Assembly: GCA_002840555.1 (NCBI GenBank)
Contig: PHBJ01000015.1
Coordinates: 145,623-209,622 of the forward strand
Direction of reading: 5' to 3'
DNA from: Deltaproteobacteria bacterium HGW-Deltaproteobacteria-13
GTDB taxonomy: Bacteria; Desulfobacterota; Syntrophia; Syntrophales; Smithellaceae
DNA: 64,000 bases
Within the stretch, counting starts at the first letter, position 1. Every line of letters begins with the position of its first letter. Of this stretch, positions 37,618-44,117 are shown in pieces. Made by a program: the position numbers and the translations under genes. The notes beneath the pieces are model-generated. The model did not search any database and was not told where the DNA came from. It saw only the letters and a list, made by a program, of their open reading frames with translations.

Positions 37618-38568
37618 CTAAAGTTCCCTTACCGCCTGAATAATCTGCGATTTGATTGAATCAATATCACCTTTCATCCAACAGGACGAGGCGTGGATAT
37701 GACCTCCGCCGCCAAATTTTTTCGCCACCTTCTCCACATTAACCTGGGCTTTGGAACGCAGGCTCAGTTTGAAATTATCCTCTCCTCTTTGCGTGTAAAG
37801 CACGGACACCTCAATGCCGCTTACCGTGCGCGGAATATCAACAAACCCTTCCGTGTGTTCCCAGGCCGCGCCTGTATCCCGTAAATCTTTTTGCGTAACC
37901 ACCATGGACCCGACCTTGCTTTCCAGATCCAGGGACAATGTTTCCAGCGCCTTAGCCAGCAATTTTAATCTTGCCGGAGAATCATTTTCATAAACATTTT
38001 CCGCTATCCATTGCGGATTGGCGCCGTTTTCCACCAAGTGCCCTGCCGCCAGAAATGTTTCCTCCGTCGTACTCGAGTAACGGAAACTGCCGGTATCCGT
38101 TATGATCGCCGCGTACAAATTGGTGCTGATATCTTTGGACATTTTAAAGCGCATTTCCCGCATCAAACGAAACAGCAATTCGCCGGTGGAGCTGGCCTTG
38201 GCATCCAGTATTTTCAAAGCACTAAAACCGTTATTGGAAACATGGTGATCAATATTAATGAGTCTTTTAATCTTTTTGATATTTTCCGCTTCATCCCCGA
38301 CTCTTGTCAAATCACTGCAATCAAGAATCATGCCGGTATCGTACTGCTCCACATCACTCAGATTATGAATTATATTCTGCGCCGCCGGCAAAAACCGGTA
38401 ACGTTCGGGCGTACGATCCTGATTATAAATAACCGCCTTCTTCCCCAATTCTTTTAACATCAGATAAAGAGCCAGTTCCGAACCCAGAGCGTCTCCATCG
38501 AGCCTTACGTGAGCGGTGATTAAAAAGTTTTGCCCTTCATTGATCGCTTTAATAACTTTACTGATCAT
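37618..38568 (-). CDS. nrnA: DHH-family oligoribonuclease / pAp phosphatase
   Basis: NrnA-type proteins degrade short RNA oligonucleotides and dephosphorylate 3'-phosphoadenosine 5'-phosphate. The 316-residue protein carries the DHH metal motifs: HVRLDGDALGSE, DCSDLTR and NIDHHVSN. The DHHA1 domain has GGGGHIHASSCW. It starts 11 bases inside the rbfA gene, a coupled junction. In this operon, between rbfA and truB, its role in RNA turnover matches its neighbours. Confidence 0.93.
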   Translation of the reverse strand: MISKVIKAINEGQNFLITAHVRLDGDALGSELALYLMLKELGKKAVIYNQDRTPERYRFLPAAQNIIHNLSDVEQYDTGMILDCSDLTRVGDEAENIKKIKRLINIDHHVSNNGFSALKILDAKASSTGELLFRLMREMRFKMSKDISTNLYAAIITDTGSFRYSSTTEETFLAAGHLVENGANPQWIAENVYENDSPARLKLLAKALETLSLDLESKVGSMVVTQKDLRDTGAAWEHTEGFVDIPRTVSGIEVSVLYTQRGEDNFKLSLRSKAQVNVEKVAKKFGGGGHIHASSCWMKGDIDSIKSQIIQAVREL

Positions 38569-38920
38569 TCTTATTTTCCTGCCCGGCTATCTGGGCCAAT
38601 AATTTTTCAATGCGGTTGCCGTATGCAAAAGATTGATCATGAACAAAAGTAAGTTCCGGCACGCAGCGCAACTGTATGCGTTTACCCAGTTCCCTGCGGA
38701 TAAAACCGGCAGCCTGAGTCAAACCGGCTTTTATTTCGGGGGAACATTCATCTTTTCCCATTTCCACAAAATAAATTTTGGCGTTACGCAGATCGTCGGT
38801 CACTTTGACCGATGTGATCGTCACTGAATGCAACCGCGGATCTTTCACTTCTTTCATTATAATATCGAACATATCCGCCCTGATCAATTCGGCGACTCTG
38901 TCCGCTCTTTTAAAGTTCAT
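38558..38920 (-). CDS. rbfA: Ribosome-binding factor A
   Basis: RbfA is a KH-like 30S maturation factor. From the ATG at 38920 the product is 120 residues starting MNFKRADRVAELIR, exactly where the family begins, with ITSVKVTDDLRNAKIYF and LRCVPELTFVHDQS. An open frame extends 46 residues upstream inside the DUF503 gene but is unlike RbfA. It overlaps nrnA downstream by 11 bases and the DUF503 gene upstream by 11, so the run is tightly coupled. Confidence 0.93.
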   Translation of the reverse strand: MNFKRADRVAELIRADMFDIIMKEVKDPRLHSVTITSVKVTDDLRNAKIYFVEMGKDECSPEIKAGLTQAAGFIRRELGKRIQLRCVPELTFVHDQSFAYGNRIEKLLAQIAGQENKNDQ

Positions 38921-39197
38921 CGTACTTACTTGTTTTCCAGTCAGCCGCTTCCAGAAAACTGGAAACAACCATAATCTCTGTTTTGCTGTCCAATATTTCC
39001 GCCACCTGCAAATTTTCAATAAACCGAAGCAAATGATCAAGAGCGCCTGTTTCCGCAATCGTTACATTAAATTCGTTTTGCGCGCGTTTCAAAATTTTGT
39101 TCAAAACGCTTCTTTTTTCTTTTAAAGAGCCGCTTTCCGGGATTCGTAAATTTATGATTCCATACCCGATAACCATAAAGTTTTTCTCCGAATCCAA
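38910..39197 (-). CDS. DUF503 (YlxP-like) protein
   Basis: This small protein of 95 residues has the DUF503 pattern LRIPESGSLKEKRSVLNKIL and the C-terminal SSFLEAAD. Family members lie between infB and rbfA in many bacteria and are thought to assist 30S assembly; B. subtilis calls it YlxP. The exact start could be the later MVIGYG at about residue 8. It overlaps rbfA by 11 bases. Confidence 0.88.
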   Translation of the reverse strand: MDSEKNFMVIGYGIINLRIPESGSLKEKRSVLNKILKRAQNEFNVTIAETGALDHLLRFIENLQVAEILDSKTEIMVVSSFLEAADWKTSKYDEL

Positions 39198-39234: not shown

Positions 39235-41898
39235 CTAAGACTTTTCAACATTCTGTTCCAGTTTCTTTTCCATTTCCTCTACCACATAAGCTTCTATGAC
39301 ATCGCCCGAATGAATATCATTAAATCCGTCAATGCTGATGCCGCATTCGAAACCGGCCGCCACTTCCCTGGCATCATCTTTAAACCGTTTGAGTGATAGA
39401 ATTTTTCCATCAAAAACCACCACGCTGTCGCGGACCAGTTTCACATTGTTACTGCGCATGATCTTCCCGTCGGTTACATAGCAACCGGCAATGGTCCCGA
39501 CTTTGGGCACCTTGAAAAGTTCGCGGACTTCCGCGCGGCCCTGAACAACTTCCTTGTATTCCGGCTCCAGAAGTCCTTCCATGGCCGCCCGCACATCTGT
39601 AATAACATTATAAATAATGTCATAAAGCTTGATCTCCACGCCTTCCTGCTGAGCAATATCTACTACCCGCGCGTCAGGCCTTACGTTAAATCCGATAATA
39701 ATTGCCTGTGAAGCGGAAGCAAGCATAACATCTGTCTCGGTGATGGCGCCGGTGGAACTATGAATAATCCTGAGTTTTATGTCATCGTTGGAGAGCTTGT
39801 TTAAAGCGTCGGAAATCGCCTCTATCGAGCCCTGTACATCGGCTTTGATAATGACATTACACTCCTTCACACCTTCTTTTATTCTCTGATAGAGCTGTTC
39901 CAGTGTAACTTTGGAGAAAGAAGAAAGCTCTTTTTCTCTCGCTTTTCTGGTCCAGTAATCGGCAATGCCGCGCGCTTTCTTTTCGTCTTCCACGCAGAAA
40001 AATTCCGCTCCGGTTTGAGGCACGCTGGAAAAACCGATAACCTCCACCGGCATTGAAGGCCCGGCTTCTTTAATGCGCCTGCCCTGATCATTAATCATAG
40101 CCCGTACACGGCCGAATTCAGTTTTGGAAACAAAGGAATCGCCTTCTTTCAGAGTGCCTTCCTGAATTAAAACCGTCGCAACAGGGCCACGGCCGCGATC
40201 CAACTTAGCCTCAATAATAATACCGCGGGCAGGGAGATCAGGATTGGCTTTCAGCTCCATAACATCCGCCTGCAGCAGAATCATTTCCAGCAATTCTTCA
40301 ATATTGAGTTTCTTTTTAGCGGACACCTCGCAGAAAATCGTTTCACCGCCCCACTGTTCGGATAAAAGACCGTGTTCGGTAAGAGACTGTTTGATTTTTT
40401 CGGGATCAGCGCCGGGTTTATCAATTTTATTGATCGCCACGATAATAGGCACTCCGGCAACCTTGGAGTGATTGATGGCCTCTACGGTTTGATTCATCAC
40501 GCCGTCGTCGGCGGCCACAACCAAAACAACTATATCGGTTACCTGCGCTCCACGCGCCCGCATCGCCGTAAATGCTTCGTGCCCGGGAGTATCTAGAAAA
40601 ACTATGTCCCGGTCGTTGATGTGAACATGATAAGCGCCGATGGCCTGGGTAATTCCACCAGCTTCGCCATCAATAACATTGGACTGCCTTATTACATCTA
40701 AAAGTGAGGTTTTACCATGATCAACGTGCCCCATAATAGTTACAACCGGCGCCCGCGGTTTGAGATTTTCAGGAGTTGACGGAGTTTTCAATGCGGATTC
40801 TTCAAATTCCATTTCCGCCGGTTCCACCTGGAAACTGAATTCTGCGGCAACAAGGGTGGCCGTATCGTAATCTATGGCTTGATTGATGGTAGCCATAACA
40901 TCCATGGACATCAATTTGTTGATTATTTCACTTGCCTTTACACCCATTCTTTTGGCGAAGTCGCCTACTGTAATTGTTTCTCCAACTTTGATGCGCCTCT
41001 TAATCGCCTTGGGAACGGTAATTTCCGTTTTCTTCATTTTGGCCGGAGTAGCTTTTTTGCCATCCCGCCACTTGGCAAAAATTATCTCCTGATCTTCCTG
41101 CTTTTTCAGTCTCTTTTCGATTTTTTTCTCTAAAATCTTGCGCTGCGGTATTTTCTTTTCTTCTTCTATAAATACCTCAACCTGGGGCTTGCCCTTCTTT
41201 TTCGGCTTTTCCGGCAGGGGAGTGGATATTCTTTCGCCCGGTTTCAGAGGCGCTTTGTGAGGAGCCGTTTTTTCAGTTTCCGGCCTGGTAATTCTATGTT
41301 TAACAATGATAGCCGGTTTTACGGAAGCGGGCGGAGGCTGTTTTGTTTTTTCCCCCACAGTTGCTTCTGCGGCAGGTACAGCACCGGATTCCTCTTTTGT
41401 TTCCGTTTTCGTCTCAGCTTTTATTTCAGCTTTTGTCTCTATCTTCGGTATTTTTTCTTTGGGCTGCTCAGGAACCGCTTCCTCTTTCCCGGGAACAGGA
41501 GCTTCAGAAGGCTTTTCTTTTTTGATGATATCAACTTTTGCCGCAGGTTGTGTTGGAGATACTTTCTGGGGCTTTTCTTCCGCCAAATCTTTTCCCGGAT
41601 GCTCCACTTTCTTCGCCGGAATTTCTTCAACAGGAGCAGGAGCTTCTTCAACCGGTATCTCCACAGCGGTAACGACAGTTCTACGCCTGATTACCGTTGT
41701 TTTTATTCTTTGCTCCACAACTTCGCGAAGTTCACCGGCCGTCACTTCTTTTTTCGCTCTTTCCACCTCATCTTCATCCAGAGATGCGGAAGCTGACTTA
41801 ACCGGAATGCCAATTTTTTCCAAACGAGCGATCAGGACCTTACTTTCCAGACCCAGCTCTTTGGCTAATTCATAAACTCGCTTTTTCGGCATGCGCAA
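39235..41898 (-). CDS. infB: Translation initiation factor IF-2
   Basis: IF-2 is the GTPase that places initiator tRNA on the ribosome. The 887-residue protein has an N-terminal IF2N domain ([14 protein letters not shown]), a long Glu/Lys/Pro/Ala-rich linker (about 60-290), a second IF2N domain ([19 protein letters not shown]), the G domain (G1 [10 protein letters not shown]3 DTPGHEAF, G4 NKID) and C-terminal beta barrels. The linker explains the extra length. It follows nusA by 32 bases. Confidence 0.97.
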
Positions 41899-41930: not shown

Positions 41931-43205
41931 TTATGAATCCTTTTTATCTCCAGCGATTTCGTCGTTTAAAATTTTACCAGCGGTTTCAATCAATTGCTGG
42001 GCTGTCTTCTCACCTATTCCGGGAATTGCAGATAACATTTCGGGCTCGGTTGCGGCCATCATGGCAAGGCTTTTAATGCCTTTACTGAAGAGTTTCTCCG
42101 CCATAGCCGGACCCACTCCTGTAATCTTCGTCAGATCGTTTTGTCCTGGTTGTCCTTCTTCCTGAGCGGCAACCATTGTTTCGCTCTTCATATCAATATT
42201 CCATCCCGTGAGCTTAACCGCCAACCGGACATTTTGTCCGTTCTTGCCGATAGCCAGAGAAAGCTGATCATCGGGAACGATTACCGTCATGGTATGGTTT
42301 TCATCATCAACAAATACCCGGTTAACCTTGGCCGGAGACAGGGAGCTGCTCACATACTTGGCCGCATCATCGCTGTACGGAATAATGTCTATCTTTTCGC
42401 CGCGCAATTCCTGCACCACACTTTGAACCCGCGAGCCTCTCATCCCCACGCAGGCGCCCACGGGATCAATATCCTTATCCTTGGACCTGACGGCAATTTT
42501 CCCCCGCTTGCCCGGCTCCCGGGCCACATTGATAATATCGATAAGCCCTTCGGAAATTTCCGGAACTTCCACTTCAAAAAGCGCTTTTAAAAATGAAGGA
42601 TGCGTGCGGGACAGGATGATCTGCAATCCTTTGGTATTCTTTTTTACTTCCACAATATAGGCGCGGATTCTTTCGCCGCGTTTATAAGTTTCGCGATGAA
42701 TTTGTTCCGTCGGGGGCACGATGCCTTCCGCGCGTCCGAGATTGACGATAATGCTGCCGCCCTCAAACCTTTGAGCAAAGCCGTTTACCAATTCGCCTTT
42801 GCGGTCTTTGTACTCATCATAGATATTATCGCATTCCGCGTCTTTAACTCTTTGAATAATTATTTGTTTGGCCATTTGCACGGCAATCCGGCCGAATGCG
42901 CTTGTTTCAATCTTCATGCCCAGAGAGTCACCGGGCTCCGCGCCTTCATCAAGAGTTTTTCTCGCTTCTTCCTTGGAGATTTGTGTTTCATGATCCAGAA
43001 CTTTATCAACAACAGTTTTGAACTGAAAAACTTCAACTTCTCCGGTCTCATCATTGTAATGGGCTTCGATCTCTACGTTTTGTCCGAATTTTTTACTTGC
43101 AGCCGTAAGCATTGCCGCTTCAAGGGCTTCGACAATAATTTCTTTATTAATACCTCTGTCCTTACCCATCTGTTCGATCAGACGTTTAAGTTCTGGCAAC
43201 AACAT
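41931..43205 (-). CDS. nusA: Transcription factor NusA
   Basis: NusA modulates RNA polymerase pausing, termination and antitermination. The 424-residue protein has the N-terminal polymerase-binding domain (KDRGINKEIIVEALEAA), an S1 domain (about 130-200), two KH domains (VGACVGMRGSRVQSVVQEL and LAIGKNGQNVRLA) and a C-terminal helix-hairpin-helix tail (ITGVGPAMAEKLF, IPGIGEKTAQQL). It lies between rimP (56 bases upstream) and infB. NusA itself may act at the terminator ahead of rimP. Confidence 0.97.
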   Translation of the reverse strand: MLLPELKRLIEQMGKDRGINKEIIVEALEAAMLTAASKKFGQNVEIEAHYNDETGEVEVFQFKTVVDKVLDHETQISKEEARKTLDEGAEPGDSLGMKIETSAFGRIAVQMAKQIIIQRVKDAECDNIYDEYKDRKGELVNGFAQRFEGGSIIVNLGRAEGIVPPTEQIHRETYKRGERIRAYIVEVKKNTKGLQIILSRTHPSFLKALFEVEVPEISEGLIDIINVAREPGKRGKIAVRSKDKDIDPVGACVGMRGSRVQSVVQELRGEKIDIIPYSDDAAKYVSSSLSPAKVNRVFVDDENHTMTVIVPDDQLSLAIGKNGQNVRLAVKLTGWNIDMKSETMVAAQEEGQPGQNDLTKITGVGPAMAEKLFSKGIKSLAMMAATEPEMLSAIPGIGEKTAQQLIETAGKILNDEIAGDKKDS

Positions 43206-43261: not shown

Positions 43262-43756
43262 TTAATTCTCTTTTGAATACTTGCCATCCCCGTCATCGAC
43301 AAGATTAGCTTTCACAACCTCCTGCCTGGGAATCCGGTAAATTTTTCCGGCTATTTCTATCAAAACCATTTTTCGGCCGGCTTCTTCAATAAAATCTGTG
43401 AGAATACCGCGAAAATTCTTAATTCCATCAATTTTTTCGTTTGTTTTTACGATTACATTGGAATTCTTATATTTTACAAAATCCTGATCGCGCGATATCG
43501 GCCTGTCCAGACCGGGCGAAGAGACCTCCAGCGTGTAAGCGCTGTTGATTACCTCACGAATATCAAAAATATCACCTAACTGGTTGCTTATATTGGCACA
43601 ATCATCAAGCGTGATTCCACATTCCTTATCCAGAAACAACCGGATTATCCAGCGTGAATGCATTTTTATGCATTCCACATGAATCAATTCCATTCCTTCC
43701 GAAGCAACGACAGGCTCAGCCAGCTGCCTGATTTTTTCTTTTATCTCATTATCCAT
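43262..43756 (-). CDS. rimP: Ribosome maturation factor RimP
   Basis: RimP helps early 30S assembly. The 164-residue protein has the two-domain layout: an N-terminal alpha/beta part (GMELIHVECIKMHSRWIIRLFLD, with CGITLDDCANIS) and a C-terminal SH3-like barrel starting after LEVSSPGLDRPI. It heads the nusA operon. An intrinsic terminator ends only 15 bases before its ATG, so expression must come from readthrough of the tRNA-Gly transcript or a promoter overlapping that hairpin. Confidence 0.94.
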   Translation of the reverse strand: MDNEIKEKIRQLAEPVVASEGMELIHVECIKMHSRWIIRLFLDKECGITLDDCANISNQLGDIFDIREVINSAYTLEVSSPGLDRPISRDQDFVKYKNSNVIVKTNEKIDGIKNFRGILTDFIEEAGRKMVLIEIAGKIYRIPRQEVVKANLVDDGDGKYSKEN

Positions 43757-43766
43757 ATTAGTCCAG

Positions 43767-43794
43767 AAAACAAAAAAGTGGGCATGAGCCCACT
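43767..43794 (-). terminator. Intrinsic terminator between tRNA-Gly and rimP
   Basis: On the minus strand AGTGGGC and GCCCACT form a 7-bp stem (43777-43794) with a 4-base loop, followed by TTTTTTGTTTT. It would end the tRNA-Gly transcript. Its closeness to the rimP start makes it a likely attenuator for the whole nusA operon. Confidence 0.75.
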
Positions 43795-43896
43795 CATCAA
43801 TACAACGTTATCGATGGTTTGATAATTTGCTAACACATCACAAAGGACAAAGCAAGCAAAAAGATTACGGCAAATAGCCGCCTGATGAGCGGAAAA

Positions 43897-43971
43897 TGGA
43901 GCGGGCGACCGGGCTCGAACCGGCGACGTCCAGCTTGGGAAGCTGACATTCTACCACTGAATTACGCCCGC
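43897..43971 (-). tRNA. tRNA-Gly (anticodon CCC)
   Basis: The minus strand folds as a full cloverleaf. The acceptor stem is GCGGGCG/CGCCCGC, with discriminator U and encoded CCA (43897-43899). The D arm is AATTCAGTGGTAGAAT. The anticodon stem TCAGC/GCTGG encloses loop TTCCCAA, giving anticodon CCC, which reads GGG. The T arm is GCCGG-TTCGAGC-CCGGT. It sits upstream of rimP-nusA-infB, the place where E. coli carries metY. Confidence 0.95.
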
Positions 43972-43992
43972 CGCCCGCTCATAAGGGCGCTA

Positions 43993-44020
43993 ATGTTATT
44001 GAACAGAAGTGTTTTGTCAA
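43993..44020 (-). promoter_or_regulatory. Strong promoter of tRNA-Gly
   Basis: On the minus strand a perfect TTGACA (44020-44015) and TAACAT (43998-43993) are 16 bases apart. Initiation would fall near 43986, about 15 bases before the mature tRNA 5' end. It is the only strong promoter seen ahead of the nusA operon. Confidence 0.65.
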
Positions 44021-44087
44021 GGTATTTTTACTTGTTGGGGTGACGACAAGCGGACGGGAAAAGACATTTTCAGGCGATAAAAACAGC

Positions 44088-44117
44088 TTGACCATGTTTG
44101 CCATGTTGATGTAATGT
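44088..44117 (+). promoter_or_regulatory. Putative promoter of the small membrane protein gene
   Basis: TTGACC at 44088-44093 and TAATGT at 44112-44117 are 18 bases apart, divergent from the tRNA-Gly promoter. AAAGGAGG follows just before the ATG at 44164. Confidence 0.4.

Follow-up and report, generated by a model that had tools for sequence, protein, structure and literature searches.

How is an operon expressed when an intrinsic terminator stands directly in front of its first gene? This question is raised by a locus in a 64-kb stretch of DNA (hereafter the window, meaning the whole stretch analyzed), in which four minus-strand parts follow one another in series: a tRNA promoter, a tRNA-Gly(CCC) gene, an intrinsic terminator and the ATG of rimP. 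The features are as follows.

43993 to 44020, minus strand: P1, the predicted promoter of tRNA-Gly (TTGACA-16-TAACAT; 10 of 12 consensus matches)
43897 to 43971, minus strand: tRNA-Gly(CCC) (ARAGORN; Rfam tRNA model, 62.8 bits)
43776 to 43795, minus strand: rimP-leader terminator hairpin, GAGTGGGC-TCAT-GCCCACTT, with the core AGTGGGC at 43794-43788 and GCCCACT at 43783-43777
43767 to 43777, minus strand: U-tract of the terminator, TTTTTT G TTTT in the window sequence
43262 to 43756, minus strand: rimP (PF02576, 84.7 bits; cut-off 22.7)
41931 to 43205, minus strand: nusA (TIGR01953, 400.8 bits; cut-off 253.4)
39235 to 41898, minus strand: infB (TIGR00487, 856.4 bits; cut-off 424.4)
38558 to 39058, minus strand: rbfA, ORF as listed (TIGR00082, 99.6 bits; cut-off 51.15; match from residue 47)

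The tRNA-Gly(CCC) gene is the sole tRNA that ARAGORN finds within the window, and about 100 nt separate its 3' end from the terminator hairpin. On the same strand, rimP is followed in the 3' direction by nusA, infB, a small ORF, rbfA and an nrnA-like gene, and by this one-strand gene order rimP is the first gene of a predicted operon with nusA and infB. The rimP ORF scored 121.6 bits against the best NCBIfam RimP model, which is under that model's own cut-off of 210. The nrnA-like gene also scored below the cut-off of its NCBIfam model, and the small ORF between infB and rbfA gave no NCBIfam match. The true start of rbfA is probably internal to the listed ORF.

Promoter-like and terminator-like sites were sought at 42.5-45.5 kb. 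P1 was the best of 10 promoter-like sites (4.9 expected from shuffles) and is conserved in part, with at least 10 of 12 matches in 23 of 48 distinct tRNA-upstream stretches of relatives and lower counts in the other 25. A loose terminator scan of the same region gave nine sites including the rimP-leader hairpin, with 3.8 expected. When the full 64 kb were scanned strictly (at least as stable as -10 kcal/mol, with 6 T in 8), four sites were found, among which the rimP-leader terminator was the strongest (-13.7 kcal/mol) and the only one lying 60 nt or less before an ORF start, in a set of 79 ORFs of at least 120 aa. This terminator (43795-43767) consists of the eight-pair hairpin followed by TTTTTGTTTT; its AGTGGGC-TCAT-GCCCACT sequence, with TTTTTTGTTTT, precedes the rimP ATG at 43756, which begins 15 nt past the T6 run. 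The first-pass annotation, which had described a promoter before tRNA-Gly, a terminator after it and this 15-nt distance to rimP, was accurate on all three points.

Comparison with described rimP leaders

Naville and Gautheret reported in 2010 that the rimP-leader is the most ubiquitous attenuator, found in the majority of their surveyed species with examples from Gammaproteobacteria and Firmicutes (PMC2965389). In the account given there, it has a conserved GGGc...gCCC stem that occurs in no other terminator and has no visible antiterminator. NusA was proposed as the regulator and RimP was mentioned as a possible feedback regulator, so that the factor reading the GGGC/GCCC stem was left open. 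The element in the window shares the sequence features given for the general rimP-leader: an intrinsic terminator in the rimP 5' region, directly before the rimP of rimP-nusA-infB, and a GGGC...GCCC stem and then a T-run. No antiterminator stands out in the window, although a five-pair alternative helix can be drawn (see below). As in that description, the motif is not common to other terminators and is nearly confined to the rimP leader. It differs from the general form in its longer Syntrophales stem (AGTGGGC/GCCC[AG]CT) and in the predicted extended -10 promoter found 14-40 nt before the stem in Syntrophales. Our literature search found no paper on the rimP-leader in Syntrophales or Deltaproteobacteria, although the species lists of the 2010 paper may include relatives.

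We also compared the locus with the gammaproteobacterial form of the rimP leader (Rfam RF01770), which shares the gene, the operon and a terminator before rimP. This model gave no match to the window at the gathering score and none in 43600-44100 with E up to 10, whereas the E. coli leader, used as a control, scored 102 bits. Reading of the sequence also showed that the window has no counterpart of the CCCg...cGGG hairpin that lies upstream in the gammaproteobacterial form. The first-pass annotation had likened the locus to E. coli, in which metY occupies the place of tRNA-Gly. The comparison is right and goes further, since the E. coli operon has the promoters P-1 and P0 before metY, P2 after it, and the terminators t1 and t2 before rimP (PMC6511841). 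Both heads combine a tRNA gene, promoters before and after it (predicted ones in the window) and terminators before rimP. In E. coli, however, the tRNA is the initiator tRNA instead of tRNA-Gly(CCC), the leader is longer and there are two terminators; the last of these before rimP (CTGGGCTTTAGGCCC-T7) has the same core as that of the window.

Conservation of the hairpin before rimP

The RimP family (PF02576) was sought in 60 genomes, comprising the window's own and relatives, and was found in 56. In 55 of these 56, the 500 nt preceding rimP contain a terminator hairpin, mostly 60 nt or less and at most 359 nt from the gene; the sole exception is a contig ending 96 nt upstream of rimP. A search with the pattern GTGGGC, 3-6 nt, GCCCAC, T5 returned exactly one copy per genome in 54 of the 60 genomes, and the reversed pattern, which served as the control, returned none (0/60). 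The occurrence of the hairpin thus exceeds chance. Its single copy per genome, where found, rules out a common genomic terminator of the lineage. In a wider set of 69 related loci (68 genomes, one of them counted twice; 65 distinct leaders remain), the hairpin precedes rimP in 66, and the remaining three are cut, gapped or partial. Our tally of 166 loci is redundant, with several loci representing the same place. The comparison in relatives, which had been proposed on first reading of the locus, came out in favor of the hairpin.

TTTTTT is present in all 65 distinct leaders, all of which were selected for at least 5 T in 8. In the terminator stem, 100% of cells are paired and six of seven pairs are invariant, partly by construction, given that the leaders were selected with a pattern (GTGGGC, GCCC[AG]C, at least 5 T in 8). 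This invariance is meaningful because only the three cut, gapped or partial loci among the 69 failed the pattern. At the level of the class, a single copy was found in 129 of 155 genomes. No RimP was found in 12 of the 26 misses; the other 14 comprise 11 with a variant hairpin, in which the 3' side reads GCCCGC or the loop is longer, and three cut, gapped or partial loci.

A longer motif with GATGAG before the stem was run on one genome per species, covering 84,980 species. It returned 67 loci, 66 of which are directly before rimP on the same strand, with the last at a contig end. By name, 57 of the 67 belong to Smithella, Syntrophus, Syntrophaceae, Syntrophales, Syntrophobacterales, Deltaproteobacteria or Pseudomonadota, and the other 10 to Acidobacteria, Acidobacteriota, Terriglobia, Acidoferrales or, in one case, Acidimicrobiia. 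These names suggest Syntrophales, perhaps Smithella, as the origin of the window. The same GATGAGTGGGC...GCCCACTTTTTT element also occurs before rimP in another phylum (L107, L108, L110, L119, L121, L125, L126, L128 and L157, Acidobacteria by name, and L144), its GATGAG being common to the Acidobacteria loci by construction because the search pattern required it. In several of these loci a TTGCTT- or TTGCAT-17-TATACT promoter can be seen by eye shortly upstream.

In the phylum, the strict form (GTGGGC...GCCC[AG]C-T5) was present in 130 of 297 evenly drawn genomes. In seven of the 130, one palindromic site is matched on both strands. The reversed control was present in nine genomes. Thirty loci were returned, and in 26 of them the hairpin precedes rimP; in the other four, one at a contig end and three with no rimP detected in the 1.5-kb flanks, no rimP was found next to the hairpin. 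The strict hairpin is therefore less universal outside the order than within it. We also drew a RimP-first sample of 98 phylum genomes, found RimP in 94 and analyzed 89 loci, leaving out three already in the order set and two with only a partial RimP match. A terminator with a GGG/CCC core lies within 450 nt before rimP in 66 of the 89 loci, 15 to 213 nt before its start, compared with 0.2% of shuffled stretches. In the 450 nt upstream of the other 23 no such terminator was found; on reading, some of these contain further stem variants. The same pattern matched the opposite strand in 11 of 89 loci, the stem being nearly its own reverse complement. The outer stem shows paired variation among the phylum loci, in which GGG and CCC were fixed by the search pattern: GTGGGC/GCCCAC in 29, GTGGGC/GCCCGC in 11, GCGGGC/GCCCGC in eight, ACGGGC/GCCCGT in three, GTGGGT/ACCCAC in two and GCGGGT/ACCCGC in two, besides others, some of which are not fully paired.

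A predicted second promoter, proposed attenuation and its alternatives

The first-pass annotation had stated that no other promoter is visible before rimP. This was wrong, as comparison of the leaders revealed a conserved sequence, which we designate P2, between tRNA-Gly and the hairpin. The additional features of this interval are as follows.

43827 to 43855, minus strand: P2, predicted conserved extended -10 promoter (TTGCTT 43855-43850, TGTGT 43837-43833, TAGCAA 43832-43827)
43795 to 43816, minus strand: hairpin A, CATCGATA-ACGTTG-TATTGATG, found by folding directly 5' of the terminator

The P2 motif (TTG[AC][AT][AT]-N12-T[AG]TG-N-TA, that is, a -35 and an extended -10 spaced 17 nt apart) was found in the 110 nt preceding the hairpin in 58 of 65 distinct leaders. 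The window's own family accounts for 32 of these (of 34 leaders) and other families for 26 (of 31); seven leaders are without the pattern. None of 64 control stretches just upstream, each of up to 310 nt, contains it. Its rate in dinucleotide shuffles, 0.05%, overstates the surprise because the motif was derived from these same leaders. The plain consensus promoter scan of 42.5-45.5 kb missed P2, and the window's copy is weak as a plain promoter, above all in its -10. Transcription from P2 is expected to start near 43820, a position that is predicted, like the use and activity of the promoter, from sequence.

P2, measured from the end of its TA, keeps a tight distance of 14-40 nt to the stem (quartiles 33 and 37), and in the window the hairpin begins about 27 nt downstream of the expected start. 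In two genera of another family (9 of the 65 leaders: L037, L089, L091, L092 and L094-L098), the -10 of P2 ends about 10 nt before the stem, which would leave only about 4 nt of RNA in front of the hairpin. From these two distances, termination would fall at about +26 to +54. Given P2, rimP need not depend on the tRNA promoter, and P2 too would feed through the terminator. Of the earlier proposal that rimP-nusA-infB depends on readthrough, the readthrough itself is thus supported by the conservation described above and agrees with what is reported for other bacteria (PMC2965389, PMC12288461), whereas dependence on the tRNA promoter alone is not supported, given P2.

Based on these observations, we consider it likely that the hairpin is a rimP-leader attenuator of the rimP-nusA-infB operon, with NusA as the most likely effector. 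Polymerases from P2, and some from the tRNA-Gly promoter, would reach the intrinsic terminator just before rimP, and the fraction reading through would set the levels of RimP, NusA, IF2 and probably the products of the genes behind. NusA most likely raises termination at the hairpin, a role assigned here from the work of others. With ample NusA, transcription would yield a short RNA, some 50 nt long when started at P2, and only small amounts of operon mRNA; with scarce NusA, polymerase would read through. No antiterminator structure would be required. A 2025 review describes, from experiment, that B. subtilis NusA stimulates termination in its own leader (PMC12288461), a mode of action that we propose here from the anatomy of the locus. 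In E. coli, mutants in which NusA termination is reduced have higher levels of the operon transcripts (PMC6511841). The rimP-leader is a very widespread switch by which bacteria probably limit their own NusA, and we regard the present locus as a conserved, well-placed predicted attenuator of this already described kind with an extra promoter arrangement.

Several points speak against this explanation. Regulatory terminators were reported to be less stable than regular ones (PMC2965389), and the terminator here looks strong (-13.7 kcal/mol, T6); for this reason, NusA dependence, like the degree of termination, is something that we infer. The strict hairpin is less universal outside the order, the core terminator was not found in 23 of 89 phylum loci, and the P2 pattern is missing from 7 of 65 leaders. 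In addition, a Term-seq study of B. subtilis published in 2021, which dealt with NusA and NusG, gave no match in its main text to terms on nusA autoregulation (PMC8060035). As a speculation to which we give little credence, the terminator may be placed where sigma gives way to NusA, so that the leader measures the speed of sigma-to-NusA replacement on young polymerases and reads free NusA, with the fixed stem as the NusA contact. Free NusA would then be read directly, without relying on a weak terminator.

Is NusA the factor that reads the stem? The sequence conservation of GGGC/GCCC suggests direct recognition, and the 2010 paper names RimP beside NusA (PMC2965389), so that the reader of the stem might instead be a different product, from the operon or from ribosome assembly, such as RimP or a ribosomal protein. 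However, NusA regulates its own operon in E. coli (PMC6511841) and does so by attenuation in B. subtilis (PMC12288461), and our literature search found no comparable report for RimP. We therefore consider another reader unlikely.

It is less likely still that the hairpin is a plain 3' terminator of the tRNA-Gly unit, with rimP expressed without regulation through readthrough or an undetected promoter. In favor of this reading, tRNA-Gly precedes the hairpin on the same strand, and five loci of other orders have only 14-33 nt between the two. This gap leaves no room for a promoter, unless inside the tRNA gene, and therefore the first-pass model of a tRNA promoter as the only source may hold exactly there. 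Among the 56 relatives, however, ARAGORN finds tRNA-Gly(CCC) within about 1.5 kb in 38; the other 18 comprise five with too little sequence, five that show the 3' end of this tRNA although ARAGORN missed it, and eight with no sign of it, whole or in part, in the approximately 1.46 kb examined upstream, where contigs and masking may hide some. The hairpin sequence is kept in these eight, and P2 in seven of them. Furthermore, the gap from tRNA to P2 varies from 8 to 330 nt (42 loci) and that from hairpin to rimP from 17 to 342 nt, yet the distance from P2 to the hairpin stays at 14-40 nt. A plain terminator also has no need of a fixed stem sequence.

We considered whether hairpin A (43816-43795) could be a sensor or antiterminator controlling the terminator. 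Between the expected start and the stem, the leader of the window reads AAACCATCGATAACGTTGTATTGATGA and folds into hairpin A. The 140-nt region folds better than all of 200 shuffles, folding beats its own shuffle mean in 41 of 49 leaders, and the named leader structure has 82% of cells paired versus 34-59% when slid. However, hairpin A adjoins the terminator stem without overlapping it, and its covariation was not above shuffles (double changes at four pairs versus a mean of 4.0; covariation 0.061 versus 0.068) in an alignment with some rows out of register by two columns. Within the window's own family, two genera show only a weak fold of hairpin A, and it is missing in two genera of another family, whose nine leaders, with about 4 nt before the stem, have no room for it. 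Because of this lack of covariation, the weak folding and the short leaders, hairpin A is treated as optional; a role as an antiterminator is not favored given the missing overlap and covariation, and control by hairpin A seems highly improbable.

An alternative helix of five pairs, AUGAG/CUCAU, may form in the window; most of its 3' side lies in the loop, which varies between relatives. Two other candidates were discarded. A leader peptide from the ATGAG before the hairpin was dropped, as several relatives lack that ATG; and pairing of the tRNA-Gly acceptor stem with the 5' arm of the terminator, complementary by eye, was rejected, as the stem is kept in the eight relatives with no tRNA-Gly seen upstream and E. 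coli, with metY, also has GGGC...GCCC.

The rimP-leader is now traced through Syntrophales and part of the phylum, together with a closely spaced conserved promoter sequence. Such short leaders, in which the promoter almost touches the terminator, offer a small and clean object for testing the factor that reads the stem.

The tRNA-Gly gene and the interval behind it

In 44 of the 89 loci of the phylum sample, a same-strand tRNA-Gly(CCC) lies at most 450 nt upstream of rimP. The arrangement of tRNA-Gly, then terminator, then rimP is therefore probably ancient in the phylum. In L236 and L239, tRNA-Gly(CCC) ends 25 nt before rimP and no terminator was found between them; perhaps the attenuator has been lost there and the tRNA kept.

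We also noted one further feature behind the tRNA gene of the window.

43867 to 43881, minus strand: weak hairpin of five pairs only, with a T-rich tail to 43858

The T-rich stretch runs into the -35 of P2, and this weak hairpin may end the tRNA transcript. By eye, a few congeneric relatives (L010, L020 and L044) have similar sequence here. Stretches that are alike by eye, around TTATCCCGC ... TATAAATT ... ATACCCGTGATTA, also lie between tRNA-Gly and P2 in L004, L009, L016, L026, L040 and others, and are perhaps a small repeated element.
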